From NCBI GenBank assembly GCA_949373095.1, contig CASIBY010000011.1:1-64000 (forward strand): a stretch of 64,000 nucleotides of DNA, in the 5' to 3' direction. The DNA is from Candidatus Poseidoniaceae archaeon (GTDB lineage Archaea; Thermoplasmatota; Poseidoniia; Poseidoniales; Poseidoniaceae). The notes under the pieces are model-generated. The model was not told where the DNA came from. It worked only from the letters and a program-made list of their open reading frames with translations, and searched no databases. This document shows positions 39,958-51,435 of this stretch, one piece after another. The stretch's first letter is position 1; each line of letters begins with the position of its first letter. The position numbers and the translations under genes are program-made.

Positions 39958-40701
39958 ATGCGTGACGGCTCTCCTCGCCTTTGGCCCTATTCTCCGGCGA
40001 ATTCTCCAATTGCACTCCCTGACCGTCCGATATTATGCAGTGCAAACGAAGTCGTCACGCTTTTCAACTCTGATGATGTTCCCGACTTCACTACCAAATT
40101 GGACGGGAAGGCCCTCACGAGTTACTTGGCAGGGTATGGGACAGAGAATGACTCTCTAGATGCAGTTTTAGGAGCTCAAGGGGTCGCTCCAATGGCTCAA
40201 CGGCGCCCGATCTTACTACTCGGGGAGCTTGCCAATCCCTACCGTCTTCAGGACATCAACATTGGCCCCTTGCCCGTATTCCCCGTTCGAATTGAAGATG
40301 TCTGCAGGACATGGGCTGACGGCTTAGATACTCGTGAAGCCTATCCGGGGGTCCATCACGTAACGCTAGCACGAACTCCCGGTTGGTGGGAGCATTCTCA
40401 TCTCGGGATGGCAACGGTTGAACAGATGAAAGCATTGATTGGATGGCTTGAGAACGGGGTTCGCGGCTCATGGCGACCGGTGAAATTAGCGGAAGGGAGC
40501 ATCCGTCTTGATGTTGAATCAGATTTAGAGCCCCCCACAAAGCAAGACATCACTTGGGACGGAGTGGTTGAGCGTGTCGAACTGACGATGCCTGCCCCGA
40601 CCGGTCCAATGATTGACCTTACAACGTTGATGGTGCCGATTCATACCCGACAAGGGTGCTACAATCACCGCGGTAGGCTTTCGCCCGATGCGCTCACATG
40701 A
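39958..40701 (+). CDS. Hypothetical protein
   Basis: About 247 residues from ATG 39958 (MRDGSPRLWPYSP); the frame runs back to 39898 in the tail of the preceding gene. The stretch RRPILLLGELANPYRLQDINIGPLP, a WWEHSHLGMATVEQMKALIGWLENG segment and a PPTKQDITWDGVVERVEL segment suggest a mixed alpha/beta enzyme-like fold. No named family recognised. It overlaps ribD tail to tail by 37 bp. Confidence 0.6.
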   Translation: MRDGSPRLWPYSPANSPIALPDRPILCSANEVVTLFNSDDVPDFTTKLDGKALTSYLAGYGTENDSLDAVLGAQGVAPMAQRRPILLLGELANPYRLQDINIGPLPVFPVRIEDVCRTWADGLDTREAYPGVHHVTLARTPGWWEHSHLGMATVEQMKALIGWLENGVRGSWRPVKLAEGSIRLDVESDLEPPTKQDITWDGVVERVELTMPAPTGPMIDLTTLMVPIHTRQGCYNHRGRLSPDALT

Positions 40702-41867
40702 ACCAGCGGGACTTCCACGACAACCTCTTTCAGAAAAGGCTCATCCCATCGTTGGGATGATGTATCTAAGCGTCCAGTGACGTACTTCTGGATATAGTGC
40801 TCGACGTGTCTCTTCGCCCCAAACCAGTTCATGGGAGGGCTATGAGCCCGGCCTTTTCCGAGCACGTCCGCCGTGATTCCAGACGGAACAGGTGACCCGT
40901 GTTCATGCTTTGATCGGACGAGGTAGAACTCGTCGACCAACCCTTCGTCTAAGAATTTGTGAATAGTGGTCGGGCCACCTTCTACGAGAACACGCTGAAT
41001 ATTTTGGTCACCCAATTGATTGAGCAACGATGGTAATCCAGCAAAAGAGGACTGAACCAACATGGCCTCGCCCCCGTCGGTGAGAAGTTGAGCGTTCGGA
41101 GGGCACCGCCCGTTCGGGTCGATGACGACTCTGAGCGGTTGCCGCTTTGGTTGACCAATGCGCACGGTAAGGAGAGGGTCGTCACGAATAACCGTCTCAA
41201 CTCCGACGAGAATAGCGTCGCAATCCTGTCGTAACTCGTGAACCTTCTCGAGGCAACCGGGCGAGGTAAAGCGCCCAGCATCCAAAGAGCGATCGTCAAC
41301 AGAACCCTTTGCATCAACGGCAAGCTTGACCGTAACAATGGGTTTTCGGTGCTCACACCAGTGGAGGAACGGCCGCATTAGTTCTGCGGCTTCATCCGCC
41401 ATCAACCCCATCGATGTAGGAATTCCTGCGTTTTCAAGTACGTGTTGCCCTTTTCCTCGAACGGTTGGATTTGGGTCTTCATGAGCAATAATCACTTCTT
41501 GAACACCAGCCCACATCAGTGCCTCGGTACAGGGAGGGGTTCTTCCGAAATGATTGCACGGCTCAAGGGTCACGTAAGCAACTGCACCGTTTGGCGAGTG
41601 TCCCTTTGCTTCCGCATCATGAATCGCCATTTGTTCAGCGTGAAGTCCTCCAAGATGGTCGTGCCATCCTTCGGCAATAACCTTGCTATCTTTTACCAAA
41701 ACGCAGCCTACTAGCGGGTTCGGGCTCACTTGACCTCGCCCCCGTTCAGCGACTAAAAGAGCCCGTTCCATGAAGAAACGCTCCTGCTCAGTCCAGGTTC
41801 TGCCCATGGTAGAACGACATGGCTTTGGTTCAAGACACCTTGCATCTTTCTTTACGAGCCCTTTCAT
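40665..41867 (-). CDS. ribD: Bifunctional RibD: pyrimidine deaminase / reductase
   Basis: A 400-residue fusion catalysing two successive steps of riboflavin synthesis. The N-terminal cytidine-deaminase-fold domain has GLHAEQMAIHDAE and VTLEPCNHFGRTPPCTEAL, binding catalytic zinc. The C-terminal RibD reductase domain has PIVTVKLAVDAKGSVDDRS, ILVGVETVIRDDPLLTVR and VLVEGGPTTIHKFLDEGLVDE. A fused deaminase-reductase is the bacterial arrangement; many archaea make the reductase alone and reduce first. The start at 41867 is preferred because of a TATA-like element 45 bp upstream; an alternative is ATG 41807. Confidence 0.93.
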   Translation of the reverse strand: MKGLVKKDARCLEPKPCRSTMGRTWTEQERFFMERALLVAERGRGQVSPNPLVGCVLVKDSKVIAEGWHDHLGGLHAEQMAIHDAEAKGHSPNGAVAYVTLEPCNHFGRTPPCTEALMWAGVQEVIIAHEDPNPTVRGKGQHVLENAGIPTSMGLMADEAAELMRPFLHWCEHRKPIVTVKLAVDAKGSVDDRSLDAGRFTSPGCLEKVHELRQDCDAILVGVETVIRDDPLLTVRIGQPKRQPLRVVIDPNGRCPPNAQLLTDGGEAMLVQSSFAGLPSLLNQLGDQNIQRVLVEGGPTTIHKFLDEGLVDEFYLVRSKHEHGSPVPSGITADVLGKGRAHSPPMNWFGAKRHVEHYIQKYVTGRLDTSSQRWDEPFLKEVVVEVPLVHVSASGESLPR

Positions 41868-44011: not shown

Positions 44012-44555
44012 GCCATCATGAACGTTTTCTGTAGGCCGGAATTAACCCTAATACGAACCATTGTGATTCAGAATCACTGTTGATTTCGTCGAGGTCAATA
44101 CTGCCAGCCCCTGTTTCTGGCGACAAGGGGTTCGACCAAAGTCTTCACGTCAATCCGTCGCTCCTTCTCCGTCGACAACGGTTGCGGCCTCATCAAATGA
44201 CATCTCTTGAATGGCTACAGCAGTAGTAACGCCGTAATTCAACTTACTACCGCCCAGAAGCGGGTCGTGTGTGTCATAGAATGCACTGGCAGCCAGAGTA
44301 TCCAGTGAATGAGATTGCTGTCCCCTCACCAACAGTGAGGTCAGGTTCCTCGCCGCTAGGATTACATCCTACGGCCTGCATGTCAGAAACCGTAGTTTTC
44401 GTTCCCGATAGAGTGGAAACAACATCGATGTCGTCCTTAGCAAATGAGACACTGACGGCATTATCTCCGTCTCCCCATGCAGATGTTGAGGGGCCAAAGC
44501 ACCCAGCAAGCAACATACTGGCGATGAACAACAGGACGAGAACACCTCTGCGCAT
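44012..44555 (-). pseudogene. Lipoprotein N-terminal region, frameshifted continuation of the gene at 43064-44011
   Basis: ATG 44555 starts MRRGVLVLLFIASMLLAGC, a lipoprotein signal with LAGC at residues 16-19. The frame reads about 85 residues, then continues in other frames: near 44310 to DTLAASAFYDTHDPLLGGSK, near 44155 to RIDVKTLVEP, near 44120 to ETGAGSIDLDEINSDSESQW, and near 44015 into the frame at 44011. Four one-base shifts in 550 bp in an otherwise smooth protein suggest sequence errors. If repaired it would be one gene of roughly 490 residues. Confidence 0.55.
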
Positions 44556-44632
44556 GGACCGTGGAGGGGGCGTGGAGTTTGAGAAGTCTTCCCTCAATCT
44601 TTACGGGCATGCGACCTAAGAAACAGGCCAAA

Positions 44633-44718
44633 TGGCGCAGTCGGAGAGATTTGAACTCCCGAGTCACGGGGACACCGGATTTCAAATCCGGCGCAATACC
44701 AGGCTATGCGACGACTGC
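44633..44718 (-). tRNA. tRNA-Ser (UGA anticodon)
   Basis: Minus-strand cloverleaf. The acceptor stem pairs GCAGTCG (44712-44718) with CGACTGC (44637-44643). The anticodon loop TTTGAAA is closed by CCGGA/TCCGG, with anticodon TGA at 44682-44684. A long variable arm (CCCCGTGACTCGGG) marks a class II tRNA, and GTTCAAATC is the T-loop. A G discriminator and genome-encoded CCA follow at 44633-44636. It reads serine UCN codons. Confidence 0.95.
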
Positions 44719-44771
44719 TTTATTGGAGGCGGGAGGTTTCCCTCTTTTTCCCCTTTCGCTTGTTCACTGTC

Positions 44772-45767
44772 TCACTCGGAGTTCTCTTTTGAGGGTCGAA
44801 CAACGACAGCGAGGCAGAGTGCTAGAGTAGACAAAACGAAGGTCATGCCTGGTGTTTCCAGAGGGTCACTATCACCCAGGCCGTCATTTTCGAGTACTTC
44901 TCTAAGGTCTGCAGTGAAGTCTGGAACCTTCCAATTGTCTCCCGTCCAAACGACGAGCGGCTGACGATTTTCATTGATGATATAGGTAATGGTTGAGTGG
45001 CCGACATTGAAATCCTCACTGACTTCTTCCACGCAGGAGGTTCTGTCCCCTCCATCCCATGTATAGCCGTCATCACACATGCAGTGCAGACCTTCTCCTG
45101 TTCCCATTTCCCAGCCATGACCGCTGCATACCTCTTCGGTAGAATTCTTCACTGGGGCTGGAATATCCGACGCATTCACAATTGAAGGGGCCCAAGCAAG
45201 ATGCTTTGGTTCCACAATACCATCCATCCCAACAGGGGAAGTGTCCCAGGTCGCATTGGTAGAGTTCCATTCATAGAGGCTCCACCACCAAGAACTATCT
45301 GCTGGAGCATCTTCATCTCCAAGAGAAGTCATGTAATGGCCATACGATGAGTCAGCGATCGTAACATTGACGCCTGCATCGTTGAGTGCACCTTTCGTGA
45401 TTTGGTATCCATCAAAGGTGTCAATACTTGTTTGAACTTCTGTTCCATTGTTCCACATAATGGTCATACTTGCTTCACCTTCGACGAGTGGTGCGGAGAG
45501 ATTAGAGCGATTGAGGCTTGAGGGCATCCAAGCAATATGTTGGTTTTCTCGAAGCGCATCGATGTCGTCAATGCCAACTTGTGAGGCTGCCCAGAGGTTG
45601 GTTGATTGATTCCAAACATTAAGTTCCCAATACCATGAATCCCCTGGTGCTTCCTCGCCACCGATTCCAGTGACATAATGTCCGTATTGTGACATTGATG
45701 CGTTGATCTCAATTTGATGTTGATTCGCTAGGGTTTCAGTTAGCGTCCAACCTGAAAGGCCGAACAT
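44772..45767 (-). CDS. C-terminal extension of a SCO1-type protein: two DUF4430-like repeats, EGF-like module, membrane anchor
   Basis: An intact open frame of 331 residues that begins MFGLSGWTLTETLANQH, the end of the SCO1 domain encoded upstream in another frame. Two repeats have the pattern YGHYVTGIGGEEAPGDSWYWELNVWN and YGHYMTSLGDEDAPADSSWWW, like DUF4430/cobalamin-binding-type modules. A cysteine cluster (CSGHG..LHCMCDDGYTWDGG..C) looks like an EGF-like fold. A final helix (MTFVLSTLALCLAVVV) anchors the protein. The combination is unusual. Function may be in extracellular copper or cofactor handling for the adjacent oxidase, which is inference. Confidence 0.7.
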   Translation of the reverse strand: MFGLSGWTLTETLANQHQIEINASMSQYGHYVTGIGGEEAPGDSWYWELNVWNQSTNLWAASQVGIDDIDALRENQHIAWMPSSLNRSNLSAPLVEGEASMTIMWNNGTEVQTSIDTFDGYQITKGALNDAGVNVTIADSSYGHYMTSLGDEDAPADSSWWWSLYEWNSTNATWDTSPVGMDGIVEPKHLAWAPSIVNASDIPAPVKNSTEEVCSGHGWEMGTGEGLHCMCDDGYTWDGGDRTSCVEEVSEDFNVGHSTITYIINENRQPLVVWTGDNWKVPDFTADLREVLENDGLGDSDPLETPGMTFVLSTLALCLAVVVRPSKENSE

Positions 45768-46283
45768 GTGAGCGGAAGCATTTCCAGCTTGTGTTCACGA
45801 CGGTTACAGAGGCTTCACCGGGGTGGTAATCCATTACGTGAGCATCGATGACGCTCTCTTGAACAACCACACCAAAAGTCTTCCAGACCGGAGCCAACTC
45901 TTCAGCTGGTTCCTGTAAGGTGAGGCCATTCTACTCCATGAATCCCGGTAAAATCTTTGAGGCGTTCAGGAGAATCATATCGCGGGTCAACGGTAATGGA
46001 AATGAAGGTGACATCGTCTTTTTCGGTGTCTGTGAGTTCCCCATCAACACTTTTCAACAAGCTGAGTGATAACCGGACATACGTCTGGGCATCGGGTGAA
46101 GATAAAAGCAACAACTGTTACCTCATTGCTATCTTCATAGAACGAGAACTCATCCCCCATCTGGTCGGTGAGTACAAAGTCTTCAACAGGGCTTCGAGCG
46201 AGTTTGCTGCCTTTGTAGGCAGCAGCTGGCATAAGCAAGAGACAAGTAAGTAGAAGCGCCAATAAGGTCCGGTTAGTGTTCAT
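45768..46283 (-). pseudogene. SCO1/SenC copper chaperone domain, frameshifted (upstream part of the same gene)
   Basis: ATG 46283 starts MNTNRTLLALLLTCLLLMPA, an export signal, and lies 11 bp after the subunit IV gene. The SCO1 thioredoxin fold follows: VVAFIFTRCPDVCPVITQ with the copper-binding CxxxC, then in the next frame VDGELTDTEKDDVTFISITVDPRYDSPERLKDF. Frames change near 46075, 45905 and 45797. The late conserved His is in HVMDYHPGEASVTVVN. SCO1 delivers copper to the CuA site of subunit II, which fits the operon. The shifts look like base-calling errors since each continuation is conserved. Confidence 0.75.
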
Positions 46284-46294
46284 TGAAAACCCTC

Positions 46295-46671
46295 TCAACG
46301 GTTTGTTGCATAATCGGATGAAAGTGGTGTGCACCATGCTGGAAGTCCTGTGACTCCCTCAGGGTTGGACAAACCAATCCCCCAAAGCATAAGCAAAACG
46401 AAGATTACCCGGGAACAATGCAGTTCTCGTATAAATTCGAGGATCACCCTTCAAGTGCATGAAATAAGCTGAGATCCCGTATCCTTTGACGATTCCAACA
46501 CCGATGAGGATGGCCCATACTGCTTTCAGAGGGGATGCCAGAGAAAAAGACCGCTGCGACTTCAAACAATGTGAAGACCATGAGGACAATAAAGTTCCAA
46601 AAGTAGATGTCCTTTCCAAGCAATCCGTCAAAGATGTTTTCAATAATTCCGTGTGTTTCGTGTTCTCCCAT
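46295..46671 (-). CDS. Cytochrome c oxidase subunit IV-like protein, two frameshifts
   Basis: ATG 46671 follows the subunit I/III fusion by 9 bp with a GAGGTGA ribosome site overlapping its stop. The first frame reads MGEHETHGIIENIFDGLLGK and a helix (YFWNFIVLMVFTLFEVAAVF). After a shift near 46530 it continues PLKAVWAILIGVGIVKGYGISAYFMHLKGDP, and after a shift near 46395 VIFVLLMLWGIGLSNPEG. Three helices and the YFMHLKGD motif match the small subunit IV (CtaF/COX4-like) of caa3-type oxidases. About 120 residues when repaired. Confidence 0.8.
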
Positions 46672-46680
46672 GTTCTCACC

Positions 46681-49600
46681 TCAATACAAGTAGAAGGCTG
46701 GGAAGATAACGACCCACGCCAAATCAACAAAGTGCCAGTACAAGCCAAAGTATTCGATACCCTGGGCGTTGTCCTCATTAAACTCAACCGTGTCCGCTTT
46801 GAACACAAGGTAGAGCATGACCAAAAGGCCGATGAAGACGTGGAGGCCGTGAGCCCCGGTAGATACGTAAAAGATGCTACCTGCTTGGGTTCCGATGGTA
46901 AATCCTTCAGCAACCAAGTGGCTCCATTCAATCAACTTCAGAACGATAAACATTGAACCGAGTAAGAGAGTTGCTAAGAGGTAGTTTCGGACAGCGGCTT
47001 TCTTAGTTGGCATGAGTTTGCCCATAAAGCCGGTTGGAGCTTCCCAGTTGGCATTCTTAGCCGTCTTCAAGGCGAGGACGATGGTGTACGATGACACGAT
47101 GAGTGCAAAGGTGTTGATCGCTCCAGGAAGGAGAGTCATGAAGTCACCCTGTCCACCTAATCCTCCGAGTTCTGCACCGTCTGGGCGAAGGAAGTCGGAT
47201 GCGGTCAACATGTCAACTTGTTCACAGTTTCCTGCTTCTACTTGCCACCCTGTGCACCACTCGGTACGCATGCGGAGGTAGGAGGAAAAGAAGGTGGCGA
47301 ACACCATGATTTCAGACATGATGAAGACCCACAAACCTGCTTTGCGAATGTGCTGGCCTTCAAATGGTGCTGAGGTTGCAATCTGTTCTCCATTGCCGAT
47401 GAACGGCAGGTCTTCTCTCCACCAGTTTGAAACACCCAGTACGATAACGAGTAATCCAAACATGCTGAGTCCAAGTCCGCCTAATTCGGCTTCATTACCT
47501 GAGAGCATGTCGCTTAGTGTAGCTTGGAATTCAGGGAATCCCATCAAGAACAACATGATACCAAGTGCGAAAACGATCGGTGAACCTGACCCGTGATGTT
47601 CATGGTCATCTCCTCCATAAATGGAAGCCCCGTGACTCTCGTCTTCTTCAGGTTGTATTGAGTTGACGAAACCACCAAGGCCGATGAAACTGGCATAGGT
47701 GACACACATCAAGAGAATTGTAATTCCGGCAGTTCTCCAGGTGAGGTAGGAAAGGTGTGCTTCAACTTCATGATGGTGTGCATCGTCCTTTATGTCTTTG
47801 AGAGAGTCCTTGTTGGCCTTGAGGGCAGCAATTTCTTCGGTCGATGCATTGTTTGCTTTCGCATTCTCATAGCTGAGTTTTGCATCTTCGTAGTCGTGCT
47901 TTGCATCATCATACTCGTGCACGGCTTCTTCGTAGGCATGGTGCCTCATGTTGGCTACACCAACTCCCATGGTAGCAAAGGCAAGAATACCAATGACGAG
48001 GAAGGTACTGCCCATCAAGACAGCTCGCATCCAGATGCTGTTTTCCACGTGCGCTTCTCCGCTACTCATTCTTCTCCCTCCAGCTTGCCGACGACCGATT
48101 CCTTTCGGCTCGGCTTTCAGCAGTTTGTCAATGAGTTTTTCACCCGTATCGGGCTTGTGATGTCCGTAGCGTTCGTTCATGTCACCTTGTACGGGGTCCT
48201 CGTGGAACGACGGAGTAGGTGGGGGCGAGGTAGTGGACCATTCGAGTGACCATCCGCCCCACGGGTCTTTGCCCACGGGTTCTCCTCGGCGAGAGGAGTA
48301 GATGATGTTCCAAAGCAGGAGGATTTGGCTCAGGCCGAAGATGAATGCAAAGGTCGACACAGCCATGTTGTACTCCGCAAATCCAGATTCAACAGTGTAA
48401 CTGTGGGTACGTCGGGGCATGCCCATGATTCCAAGAGCGTGCATTGGCCAGAACGCTGCGTTGTACGATGCAAAGCCAACGAGGAAATGCCAAAGACCCA
48501 GGGTCTCGTTCATCTTACGGCCTGTGGCCTTAGGGAACCAGTAGTAAATTCCGGAAAACAGTGCGAAGACAGTTCCGCCGATGAAGACGTAGTGGAAGTG
48601 AGCTACGACGAAGTACGAATCGTGGAAGTGAATGTCCATACCAGAAACAGGGAAGAACATTCCAGATATTCCACCTAGCGTGAACGTCACGATGAAGCCC
48701 AGTGACCAAAGCGTGTGGGTCTTCATTACCAACGAACCGCCCCACAGGGTAGCAAGCCAATTGAAGATTTTAGCACCCGTTGGTATCGCTACGAACATAG
48801 TAGTGATCATGAAGACGGCTCTCCAGAACGGGTCCATACCCGATGTGAGCATGTGGTGCCCCCATACTACGAATCCAACGATTCCAATACCGGCCATGGC
48901 GAAAACCATCGACTTGTATCCAAAGATCGAACGGCGAGCAGAAGTCGCAAGAACCTCAGATACAATACCGAAGGCAGGTACAATCACCACGTAGACTTCT
49001 GGATGACCGAAGAACCAGAACAAATGCTGGAAGAGCAGTGGATCTCCACCTGCTACGAAGAAGGTGGTTCCAATGGTGTGGTCAAAGAGCAAGAAGGCGA
49101 CGCCAATGATAAAGGCTGGAAGTGACATATAGAGCATAAACACGCTGATGAAGACCGACCATGAGAAGAGCGGCATTTTCATCCATGTAACTCCCTTTGC
49201 ACGCATGGTGAATACGGTCGTGATGAAGTTTACACCCCCGAGTGTTGAGGATGCACCAAGCATGAGGACACCTGAGATAAACGCCGTAGTTCCTGGGTTT
49301 GAACCATAATTCGCAAGTTCAGCACCCAGGTTCGATTCCGTAAGTGAAGAGTAAGGAGGGTACATGACCCATGTGATATCAGCAGCTTCTCCAGACCAGA
49401 TTCCAGTAAAGATGAGTGGTGTTGAGAAGACGAGGAGCCAAAGTCCCATAGCGTTGATTCTTGGGAACGCCAAGTCCTTTGCTCCGATTTGCAGAGGAAG
49501 GACATAATTCATGAATCCAGCAATCATTGGCATGGCGGCAAGGAAAATCATAGTTGTTCCGTGAAGTGTGAAGTAAGAATTGTATTCATCATAGGTGAGG

Positions 49601-50403
49601 AAATCGTTCTCAGGCACAGCGAGTTGTATTCGGAACAAGAGAGCAAGGAGGCCTCCAACAAGGAAGAAGAAGAATCCGAACAAGAAGTACATGATTCCGA
49701 CTTGCTTGTGGTCTGTCGTGGTGAGCCACGGCTTGAGGAAGTCCCAGAACCGCTGCATGGTGAACGTATCCGGTGAGCGTCGGTAAAAGACCCAGAGAAT
49801 TCCAACAAAGATGAGTCCAACGGCAAGGCCGATGGCGGTGATGAAGATGACCAGAGCGCTTGCACTTGGGGCAAGTGCTCCAGCGTTGATTCCAGCAATG
49901 GAAACGCTTGCTTCATTCCAATAGTCTCCTCCGGAGCCTGCACCACCGTTTACAGCGTTTCCGTAAATGGTCATCTCAACGTTTTCATCATCAGCTGCAG
50001 GAGCTGTCCATTCAAACGTCCATGAGCGGACAGTGTTTGCTTCCGTGGTGTGGGTAAGTCCACCGTCCATCTCTTGTCCAAGCGTGTTGGGGATAGCAAC
50101 AATACTTCCGTGGGTTGTCAAAATTCGATATCCTCCAGCTCGTCCGTTCCAGTCGTCGCCACCGCCGTCATGGAGTTCCATGACATCGTTGATGACGGTC
50201 ACGGTGAAGGTGTAGGTTTCACTGGCGTTGTATACTTCAGGAAGCCCATCGACAACGACGCTTGTATCCGGTGAGGCTCCTCCGTGACAAGAACAACCTT
50301 GGTCACCAGCAGAACCGATTCCTGATGGAATGGCAGTAAATTGTGGTGTTGCAACGAGCGCAAGGAGAAGGACCCCCAATATGATTGAAACTCGCGCACG
50401 CAT
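46681..50403 (-). CDS. Fused cytochrome c oxidase subunits I and III with N-terminal CxCH domain
   Basis: A 1240-residue fusion. Residues 1-24 are a signal, and C37, C39, H40 (GCSCHGG) begin a choice-of-anchor V/reeler-like beta domain up to about 175, anchored by a helix (180-205). The subunit I core has H281 (heme a), FFGHPEVYVVIVPAFG (H467 and Y471 at CuB), GHHML (H516, H517) and HFHYVFIGG (H602, H604). It lacks the cysteine-bearing variants of B-type enzymes, so I read it as A-type. A charged linker with a coiled coil (about 820-875) precedes a subunit III-like domain (about 1015-1240, ending HFVDLAWVVIFPAFYLY). The start overlaps the subunit II stop by one base. Confidence 0.93.
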   Translation of the reverse strand: MRARVSIILGVLLLALVATPQFTAIPSGIGSAGDQGCSCHGGASPDTSVVVDGLPEVYNASETYTFTVTVINDVMELHDGGGDDWNGRAGGYRILTTHGSIVAIPNTLGQEMDGGLTHTTEANTVRSWTFEWTAPAADDENVEMTIYGNAVNGGAGSGGDYWNEASVSIAGINAGALAPSASALVIFITAIGLAVGLIFVGILWVFYRRSPDTFTMQRFWDFLKPWLTTTDHKQVGIMYFLFGFFFFLVGGLLALLFRIQLAVPENDFLTYDEYNSYFTLHGTTMIFLAAMPMIAGFMNYVLPLQIGAKDLAFPRINAMGLWLLVFSTPLIFTGIWSGEAADITWVMYPPYSSLTESNLGAELANYGSNPGTTAFISGVLMLGASSTLGGVNFITTVFTMRAKGVTWMKMPLFSWSVFISVFMLYMSLPAFIIGVAFLLFDHTIGTTFFVAGGDPLLFQHLFWFFGHPEVYVVIVPAFGIVSEVLATSARRSIFGYKSMVFAMAGIGIVGFVVWGHHMLTSGMDPFWRAVFMITTMFVAIPTGAKIFNWLATLWGGSLVMKTHTLWSLGFIVTFTLGGISGMFFPVSGMDIHFHDSYFVVAHFHYVFIGGTVFALFSGIYYWFPKATGRKMNETLGLWHFLVGFASYNAAFWPMHALGIMGMPRRTHSYTVESGFAEYNMAVSTFAFIFGLSQILLLWNIIYSSRRGEPVGKDPWGGWSLEWSTTSPPPTPSFHEDPVQGDMNERYGHHKPDTGEKLIDKLLKAEPKGIGRRQAGGRRMSSGEAHVENSIWMRAVLMGSTFLVIGILAFATMGVGVANMRHHAYEEAVHEYDDAKHDYEDAKLSYENAKANNASTEEIAALKANKDSLKDIKDDAHHHEVEAHLSYLTWRTAGITILLMCVTYASFIGLGGFVNSIQPEEDESHGASIYGGDDHEHHGSGSPIVFALGIMLFLMGFPEFQATLSDMLSGNEAELGGLGLSMFGLLVIVLGVSNWWREDLPFIGNGEQIATSAPFEGQHIRKAGLWVFIMSEIMVFATFFSSYLRMRTEWCTGWQVEAGNCEQVDMLTASDFLRPDGAELGGLGGQGDFMTLLPGAINTFALIVSSYTIVLALKTAKNANWEAPTGFMGKLMPTKKAAVRNYLLATLLLGSMFIVLKLIEWSHLVAEGFTIGTQAGSIFYVSTGAHGLHVFIGLLVMLYLVFKADTVEFNEDNAQGIEYFGLYWHFVDLAWVVIFPAFYLY

Positions 50404-51407
50404 CAGTAGTCATCTCCGTTTTCAGAATTTCCGGTCTTCAATACACCGGTGTCTTCGTAGCAATCATTACCTTCTGCAGCGACAATTTTGACATCACCTG
50501 TCATGTAAGCATGTTGATTTCCGCAGTATTCTGCACATTTGATGGGGAACATTCCAGGGTCATCAGGCATAACGGTCATCCATGTACCCTCTGCGTGGCC
50601 AGGAACCAAATCTTCTTTGACACCCCACTCAGGGAGCCAGAATGAATGCTGAACTCCGACATAATTTGGGTTTGATTCGTCGCTAGGTAGTGATTTCATG
50701 TTGAATACAACGAATGTGTCACAAGGTAGAATCATGGGTTCATTTGCTGCGGATGAGAATTTGTGATCCACGGGGATGTGCATCCAGGTGTGAAGGACAT
50801 CTCCGTCTGCGTTAGTCACCTCAATGAATGAGTAGTATGTTGGATTAAAATAATCAATTCCACTGTTTTCTTCTCTCGGATCAAGTTCCAAGGAAGAGGT
50901 GAGTTGGTCAAGGGCATAGTCGCTTGCAACTCCCTCTACGGTGACGGTGACATTGGTCGCTTCTGAACCGCTGGCGTTGACGTAAAGGTTGCCCAGATTT
51001 AACCAGTCAACGTTGATTGAGGTAAGTGCTTCATCGTCTTCCCACGTAAGGCTGTCTTCGTATTCAAAGTCCCAAAACCATTGTTTTCCAGTGATTTTCA
51101 TGTTGTGTGCTTTATCATCATCAGGGATGACCCATACTGCGGCGTTTGAGGACACTGCGAGGACAATAAGCCACAAAACGATGACAGTTGGCGCGAGGTA
51201 AAACACGATTTCCAAAGGTGTATTGTGCCTGTCGACTGGGAATGACCCCACTTCAATATGGTCAATGTCAGTCGTATCTGGCTCAACCCCGTCGCGGTAT
51301 CGCAGCATAGCGAGGAACATCCACCCGAAGGTCACAATTCCAACGAGAATTGACCAAAACATGAATTTATCATAAAGAACAGAGAATACCGTATCTTCCG
51401 CGACCAT
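50403..51407 (-). CDS. coxB: Cytochrome c oxidase subunit II
   Basis: About 334 residues from ATG 51407 (MVAEDT); the frame opens nine codons earlier at 51434. Two membrane helices (FMFWSILVGIVTFGWMFLA, EIVFYLAPTVIVLWLIVL) are followed by a cupredoxin domain. The CuA site is complete: YVGVQHSFWLP and CAEYCGNQHAYM (C-x3-C-x3-H-x2-M). A region of about 80 residues between KQWFWDFEYEDS and the CuA strands is longer than in compact bacterial forms. It is first in the oxidase operon, with an AAGGTGA ribosome site five bases before the ATG. Confidence 0.96.
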   Translation of the reverse strand: MVAEDTVFSVLYDKFMFWSILVGIVTFGWMFLAMLRYRDGVEPDTTDIDHIEVGSFPVDRHNTPLEIVFYLAPTVIVLWLIVLAVSSNAAVWVIPDDDKAHNMKITGKQWFWDFEYEDSLTWEDDEALTSINVDWLNLGNLYVNASGSEATNVTVTVEGVASDYALDQLTSSLELDPREENSGIDYFNPTYYSFIEVTNADGDVLHTWMHIPVDHKFSSAANEPMILPCDTFVVFNMKSLPSDESNPNYVGVQHSFWLPEWGVKEDLVPGHAEGTWMTVMPDDPGMFPIKCAEYCGNQHAYMTGDVKIVAAEGNDCYEDTGVLKTGNSENGDDY

Positions 51408-51421
51408 GGAATCACCTTGAT

Positions 51422-51435
51422 TATGCGGCCGCATA
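51422..51435. promoter_or_regulatory. 14-bp perfect palindrome upstream of coxB
   Basis: TATGCGGCCGCATA is fully self-complementary and lies 15 bp upstream of the coxB ATG. It could be an operator for the oxidase operon or a chance restriction-site-like palindrome. No second copy was noticed in the window. Confidence 0.3.

Follow-up and report, generated by a model that had tools for sequence, protein, structure and literature searches.

Two questions are raised by the oxidase locus studied here: what the CxCH domain at the N-terminus of subunit I is, and whether subunits I and III are truly made as one protein. The window, which is the whole stretch of 64,000 nucleotides analysed (positions 1 to 64,000 of contig CASIBY010000011.1, assembly GCA_949373095.1, from a Candidatus Poseidoniaceae archaeon), holds a frame of 1240 codons that is open at 46681-50403 on the minus strand, with no stop within. 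A sequence-only reading had described this frame as a surface domain joined to subunit I (COX1) and then to subunit III (COX3). Our best explanation is an A1-type haem-copper oxidase subunit I of ∼777 amino acids (aa), with COX3 encoded just downstream by its own, overlapping gene. On subunit I there would be a cytochrome-like electron-transfer domain, matured by the Ccm (cytochrome c maturation) proteins, with a sister protein in the cytochrome c1 position of another operon. We give this whole reading, electron-transfer domain included, a probability of a little under 0.6.

The choice-of-anchor V domain noticed at the N-terminus was confirmed. The NCBIfam model choice_anch_V (NF041895) matched residues 23-166 of the frame with 80.1 bits against a cut-off of 42, and the motif GCSCHGG is found at residues 36-42. 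COX1 (PF00115) matched residues 235-688 with 474 bits against a cut-off of 34.8 (E 5.8e-142), and COX3 (PF00510) matched residues 1133-1239 (E 1.8e-14). The window's own genome, which is 82% complete, has a single COX1 by PF00115. The nearest named records are Candidatus Poseidoniales and Poseidonia genome bins; over the CxCH domain, the best of them (SI074_bin128) is 100% identical after rounding.

Among the matches listed, COX1 with the CxCH domain occurs in at least 51 of the order's 59 genomes; 30 of these belong to one family, 21 to the second. For G040, only a frame from residue 198 is among the listed COX1 matches. No COX1-spanning match is listed for G002, G003, G013, G016, G020, G037 and G051, whose bins may be incomplete there. 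The same fusion was found in all four genomes examined from the third family of the class (G061, G131, G143 and G208), where COX1 was confirmed by Pfam, and also in G083, outside the class. Additional fused copies are present in G041, G058, G293 and G298. A public scan supplied further loci (the best 80 of 139, hereafter the named loci, several from the same genomes as the relatives' loci compared below), and all 78 that contain COX1 have it in frame with the CxCH domain. The domain had been singled out as the unusual part of the protein; it is conserved in every family of the class examined and, judged from these sequences, is genuine and old in the class. A second, more distant COX1 copy in one genome (G005:C6:1329-2918, L051) has no N-terminal domain.

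Residues C37, C39, H40 and H118 are kept in all 34 COX1-fused domains of our first set. When 154 distinct domains were aligned to a profile, the G-C step, the C-H step and the distant His were invariant (154/154); the profile was itself built from such domains, which are not a random sample. In a set from which duplicates were removed differently, 142 of 143 domains have the CxCH spacing and one (L083) has CGGCH. On these alignments the conservation of the motif is beyond chance. The CGGCH member, from G239, is a long surface protein whose choice_anch_V domain carries this standard motif. Proteins with CX3CH (QCGGACHGD) were also seen, in L037 (C25 of the own genome), L100:1505-2638, L101:6177-7397 and L107:7012-8100. 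Their choice_anch_V matches are weak (31.8 bits in L107, under the cut-off), and they adjoin a long CxCH surface protein and a small membrane protein. Plasmid records gave no match to the window domain and only two matches, at E 3, to a sister protein; bacterial members presumably have CXXCH.

Residues 24-182 were modelled by AlphaFold2 (AF2) as a beta-sandwich. The mean predicted local distance difference test score (pLDDT) was 80.8, with the five models ranging from 45.8 to 80.8. A Foldseek search returned many immunoglobulin (Ig)-like folds, among them the reeler domain of F-spondin (3coo_B; E 8e-4, TM 0.46/0.51), and other folds had lower E values. The reeler-like fold suggested earlier is present among the hits without being the first. 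No reeler family is among the Pfam matches of the protein at E≤1, and a profile search of solved structures gave Spondin-1 at E 0.44 and otherwise unrelated weak matches. The family names choice_anch_V, whose cut-off the window domain passes, and MXAN_6652 (NF041894) describe anchored surface proteins, and no respiratory role is named. Sister CxCH proteins match NF041894 as well, under its cut-off. Open-licence literature searched for choice-of-anchor V or MXAN_6652, and for CX1CH or CXCH with heme and cytochrome c, returned nothing; among the papers listed for reeler, cytochrome, archaea and heme, none was on point by title.

Counting the one in the window, choice_anch_V passes its cut-off five times in the window's own genome. 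One of these five opens an operon with the order CxCH protein, DUF7318-like protein, Rieske-motif protein, cytochrome b and a 940-aa protein. The Rieske protein was named from CTHLCC...CICHSSRFD; the DUF7318 match scores above its cut-off in L105 and below it in L062. Relatives of this bc-type CxCH protein are found in 57 of the 59 genomes. We examined 30 of these 57 loci: CxCH was kept and DUF7318 was next in all 30, and the Rieske-motif gene was next in 29. The distant His was found in 27 of the 30 by a simple pattern and in all by profile alignment. Cytochrome c1 (PF02167) was found in none of the 59 genomes. A published survey reports cytochrome b and Rieske protein in Marine Group II (MGII) and no canonical bc1 (PMC6336850). 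The operon-final 940-aa protein (L062:1362-4184, L105:7022-9844) has 4Fe-4S and CCG (HdrD-like) domains and would be an unusual complex III partner.

Sister genes also stand beside oxidases. In the second oxidase operon of G061 (L089:4653-8249), COX1 lacks the domain and a separate CxCH gene lies beside it, and in an oxidase operon of G298 the fused domain occurs together with a CxCH protein encoded separately. Gene context thus ties the CxCH domain to complexes III and IV. Elsewhere, three tandem CxCH genes lie directly upstream of a molybdopterin oxidoreductase in G091 (L096:4874-9787).

The distribution of Ccm genes bears on the cofactor. Of the 292 genomes sampled from the phylum, 126 have the CcmC/CcmF family PF01578, 124 of them above the cut-off. 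All 87 genomes of the class are included (42, 39 and 6 in its three families), and none lacks it in the lists. Cytochrome c of PF00034 is present in 1 of the 292, and PF13442 gave no match over its cut-off in 31 genomes. One paper reports all Thermoplasmatota without PF00034 and PF01322 (PMC9287336). Outside the class, Ccm is present in 20 of 26 genomes with choice_anch_V and in 19 of 179 without it. The six choice_anch_V genomes without Ccm have weak matches (E 8e-6 or worse), and all 12 with a match over the cut-off have Ccm. In the main text of a paper on archaeal Ccm, Thermoplasmatota are unmentioned (PMC9084895).

We propose that a secreted beta-sandwich with the invariant CxCH and distant His stands at the N-terminus of COX1 and would be held on the outer face by one extra membrane helix, on the same side as the CuA of subunit II. 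It would carry one redox cofactor, probably a haem that Ccm attaches at a Cx1CH site, shorter than the usual motif, and that has the distant His as its second ligand, and would pass electrons to CuA. Haem is favoured because Ccm genes are kept while the standard cytochrome c families searched are nearly absent, and we count the CGGCH member of the same domain family on this side. Since CxCH sisters occur in both operons, we propose a link between complex III and complex IV in Poseidoniia: one sister would stand in for cytochrome c1 alongside the Rieske protein and cytochrome b, and the two would connect the complexes, with or without blue-copper proteins, which have been proposed as alternative carriers and may shuttle between the CxCH sites. 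It had been suggested from the sequence that, on the outer face, the domain may take electrons from a donor or hold a metal. The sister operon and the Ccm genes without their usual substrates strengthen that suggestion, with the cofactor still putative.

Several points weigh against this proposal. c-type haem sites are defined by CXXCH and not CxCH; the window protein has CSCH in its place, and no cytochrome c family is among its Pfam (E≤1) or NCBIfam matches. We know of no c-type cytochrome with CxCH spacing. CcmE was found in 23 of 31 genomes, and the own genome is among the 8 in which it was not. The cytochrome c families searched were three only (PF00034, PF13442 and PF02167), so other Ccm substrates may exist, and PF13442 did give matches under its cut-off in 14 of 31 genomes, the best at E 0.002 with an internal stop. 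The co-occurrence of choice_anch_V and Ccm was tested with shared ancestry ignored. The CxCH segment is of low confidence in the AF2 model. The Rieske-motif protein had no Pfam match at E 0.01 in L105 or L062, from two species. Other domain members are long surface proteins with repeats and no evident respiratory role, so the domain is not only respiratory. Finally, System I acting on an altered Cys spacing gave a product with one extra sulphur, according to a review (PMC3601427). We consider that the domain most likely works like a c-type cytochrome. We do not file it as one because of the unusual spacing, the abnormal System I product, the gaps in CcmE, the three families searched and the putative cofactor.

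The alternative that survives best is that CxCH forms a structural site (a disulphide or zinc) and that the domain serves only as a docking site, for donors like halocyanin or for further partners. The long surface proteins, the NCBIfam description and the general Ig-like character of the Foldseek matches, F-spondin reeler included, are all in keeping with it, and one MGII family transcribes halocyanin at a high level, according to a published report (PMC9723583). However, a structural role does not need the C-H step together with the distant His, yet both are invariant; nor does docking fit well with the placement of domain genes in bc and oxidase operons, with the Ccm co-occurrence, or with the 5 of 59 genomes that keep bc-type CxCH proteins and lack blue-copper proteins (PF00127). 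We regard docking as unlikely.

We rank slightly lower the reading in which copper, or a different metal, is bound by the Cys-Cys-His-His set and the domain acts as a copper electron carrier or an aid in loading CuA. Two Cys and two His are invariant, the fold is a beta-sandwich and not that of a helical cytochrome c, PF00127 proteins are present in 54 of the 59 genomes, and in G043 an SCO-like gene (named by reading) lies directly before a CxCH gene. Copper leaves unexplained why Ccm genes are kept without standard cytochromes, and why CGGCH and CX3CH relatives exist.

Beyond the preferred haem-bearing domain on COX1 itself, we hold it an even call whether there is an unrecognised beta-sandwich cytochrome family with a Cx1CH haem site in Poseidoniia and some other Thermoplasmatota, one member replacing c1 and another tethered to COX1 in a complete cytochrome-based chain.

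The second question concerns the end of COX1. Subunit I-III fusions occur in some bacteria, and the window frame as given resembles one. Unlike those fusions, it is explained by one extra base, and in relatives the two subunits are encoded by separate genes that overlap. In all 28 distinct relatives' loci with a COX1 stop (L003-L031 and L047, leaving aside L027 and L030, where the contig ends first), the terminal TGA of COX1 overlaps the ATG or TTG at the start of COX3. Counted from the first Met, COX1 is 758-793 aa long in 27 of the 28; the start is masked in L019. COX3 was detected in 69 of the 80 named loci and is fused to COX1 in none. In a whole-protein search, COX1 and COX3 are separate matches across the 59 genomes, even in 98%-identical relatives. 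A 1287-aa frame of G004 was considered as a second fusion and rejected, as COX1 there stops after 767 aa.

Near 48,097 the window has one base more than each of its four closest relatives. Compared with L041, it has exactly 11 frame-breaking gaps at 44,033-48,097, all of them one-base insertions in the window. The same 11 places were found against L040, L042 and L043, and the two more distant of these relatives also show other gaps. At 40,683-40,859 there are seven further insertion sites relative to all three relatives that cover that stretch. As a control, the pair L040-L041 (96.2% identical to each other, and each 91-93% identical to the window) has no frame-breaking gap in 11.9 kb. More distant control pairs have 18 (L040-L042), 21 (L040-L043) and 11 (L042-L043), and no control-pair gap falls at the window's COX1-COX3 junction. 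The private insertions, which are many at 40683-40859 and 44033-46534, also break SCO into two frames and change the 3′ end of the ribD gene. A COX4-like gene (named by reading, with no Pfam match) is apparently broken by them as well.

The relatives' COX3 start falls at window residue 779, the place fixed beforehand as the one where a separate start would speak against a fusion, and the ATG with its GGAGG-like site is still present in the window. The charged, coiled-coil-like stretch (∼residues 820-885) that had been taken for the I-III linker is flanked within the COX3 extension by two hydrophobic helices (789-820 and 891-914), and is therefore not the join. Because of the 11 and 7 private one-base insertions and the separate genes in relatives, the long frame is most likely an artefact of assembly or sequencing or, less likely, a private mutation. 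A real I-III fusion in this strain, for which the open frame and the bacterial precedents speak, is very improbable in view of these results and should not be cited as biology. The features of the locus are collected in Table 1.

Table 1. Coordinates of the features of the oxidase locus in the window.
Feature	Coordinates	Strand	Basis
Signal peptide (∼residues 1-25) and CxCH choice_anch_V domain (to ∼182) of COX1	49858..50403	-	NF041895 match, AF2 model
CSCH motif, residues 37-40, putative cofactor attachment	50284..50295	-	34/34 COX1-fused domains; 80/80 named loci
His118, distant invariant His, putative second ligand	50050..50052	-	34/34; 154/154 in profile alignment
Extra membrane helix between CxCH domain and COX1, ∼residues 183-208	49780..49857	-	Hydropathy peak 169-209
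COX1 core, residues 235-688	48340..49701	-	PF00115
Private extra base joining COX1 and COX3 frames	48091..48105	-	Alignments with 4/4 closest relatives
COX3 gene with N-terminal extension, start (ATG, window residue 779) as in relatives	46681..48069	-	ATGA overlap in relatives; PF00510
COX2, CuA-type motif CAEYCGNQHAYM, directly upstream of COX1	50403..51434	-	PF00116, TIGR02866
SCO gene split over two frames	45902..46337	-	PF02630 positions 2-44, then 43-92 in next frame; private insertion ∼46061

Compared with known oxidases, the locus shares the COX1 core, a CuA-type COX2 and a separate COX3 with the A1-type aa3 oxidase (CtaD/CoxA). It differs in the CxCH domain and membrane helix added at the N-terminus of subunit I, and in a COX1 score under the TIGR02891 equivalog cut-off (628 against 671 bits). 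Poseidoniales coxA was placed in the A1 subfamily in a published survey (PMC9287336). The COX2 of the window matched only COX2 families at a meaningful E in Pfam and NCBIfam, with no cytochrome c domain on subunit II. In caa3 oxidases such a domain is carried on subunit II. If the cofactor is haem, the window protein would resemble them in having an electron carrier tethered to the oxidase on its outer face. It differs from caa3 in that the domain precedes subunit I, is modelled as a beta-sandwich and carries CxCH, not CXXCH. In the b6f complex, which also combines a Rieske protein with cytochrome b, the place of c1 is taken by cytochrome f, a c-type cytochrome rich in beta structure whose haem site is N-terminal. 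Its likeness to the CxCH proteins is an analogy only, since they have CxCH and not CXXCH and a sequence match was neither sought nor found.

Published surveys (PMC6336850, PMC9287336) raise the question of how electrons are handed from complex III to complex IV in Marine Group II archaea, and the presence of the conserved CxCH domain in both complexes offers one testable answer. A survey of archaeal cytochromes c relied on CxxCH (PMC4429474), and CxCH would therefore be invisible to it. Our results suggest that searches restricted to CXXCH may miss cytochromes. If the proposal is true, a complete cytochrome-based chain would exist in a phylum from which cytochrome c has been reported absent.

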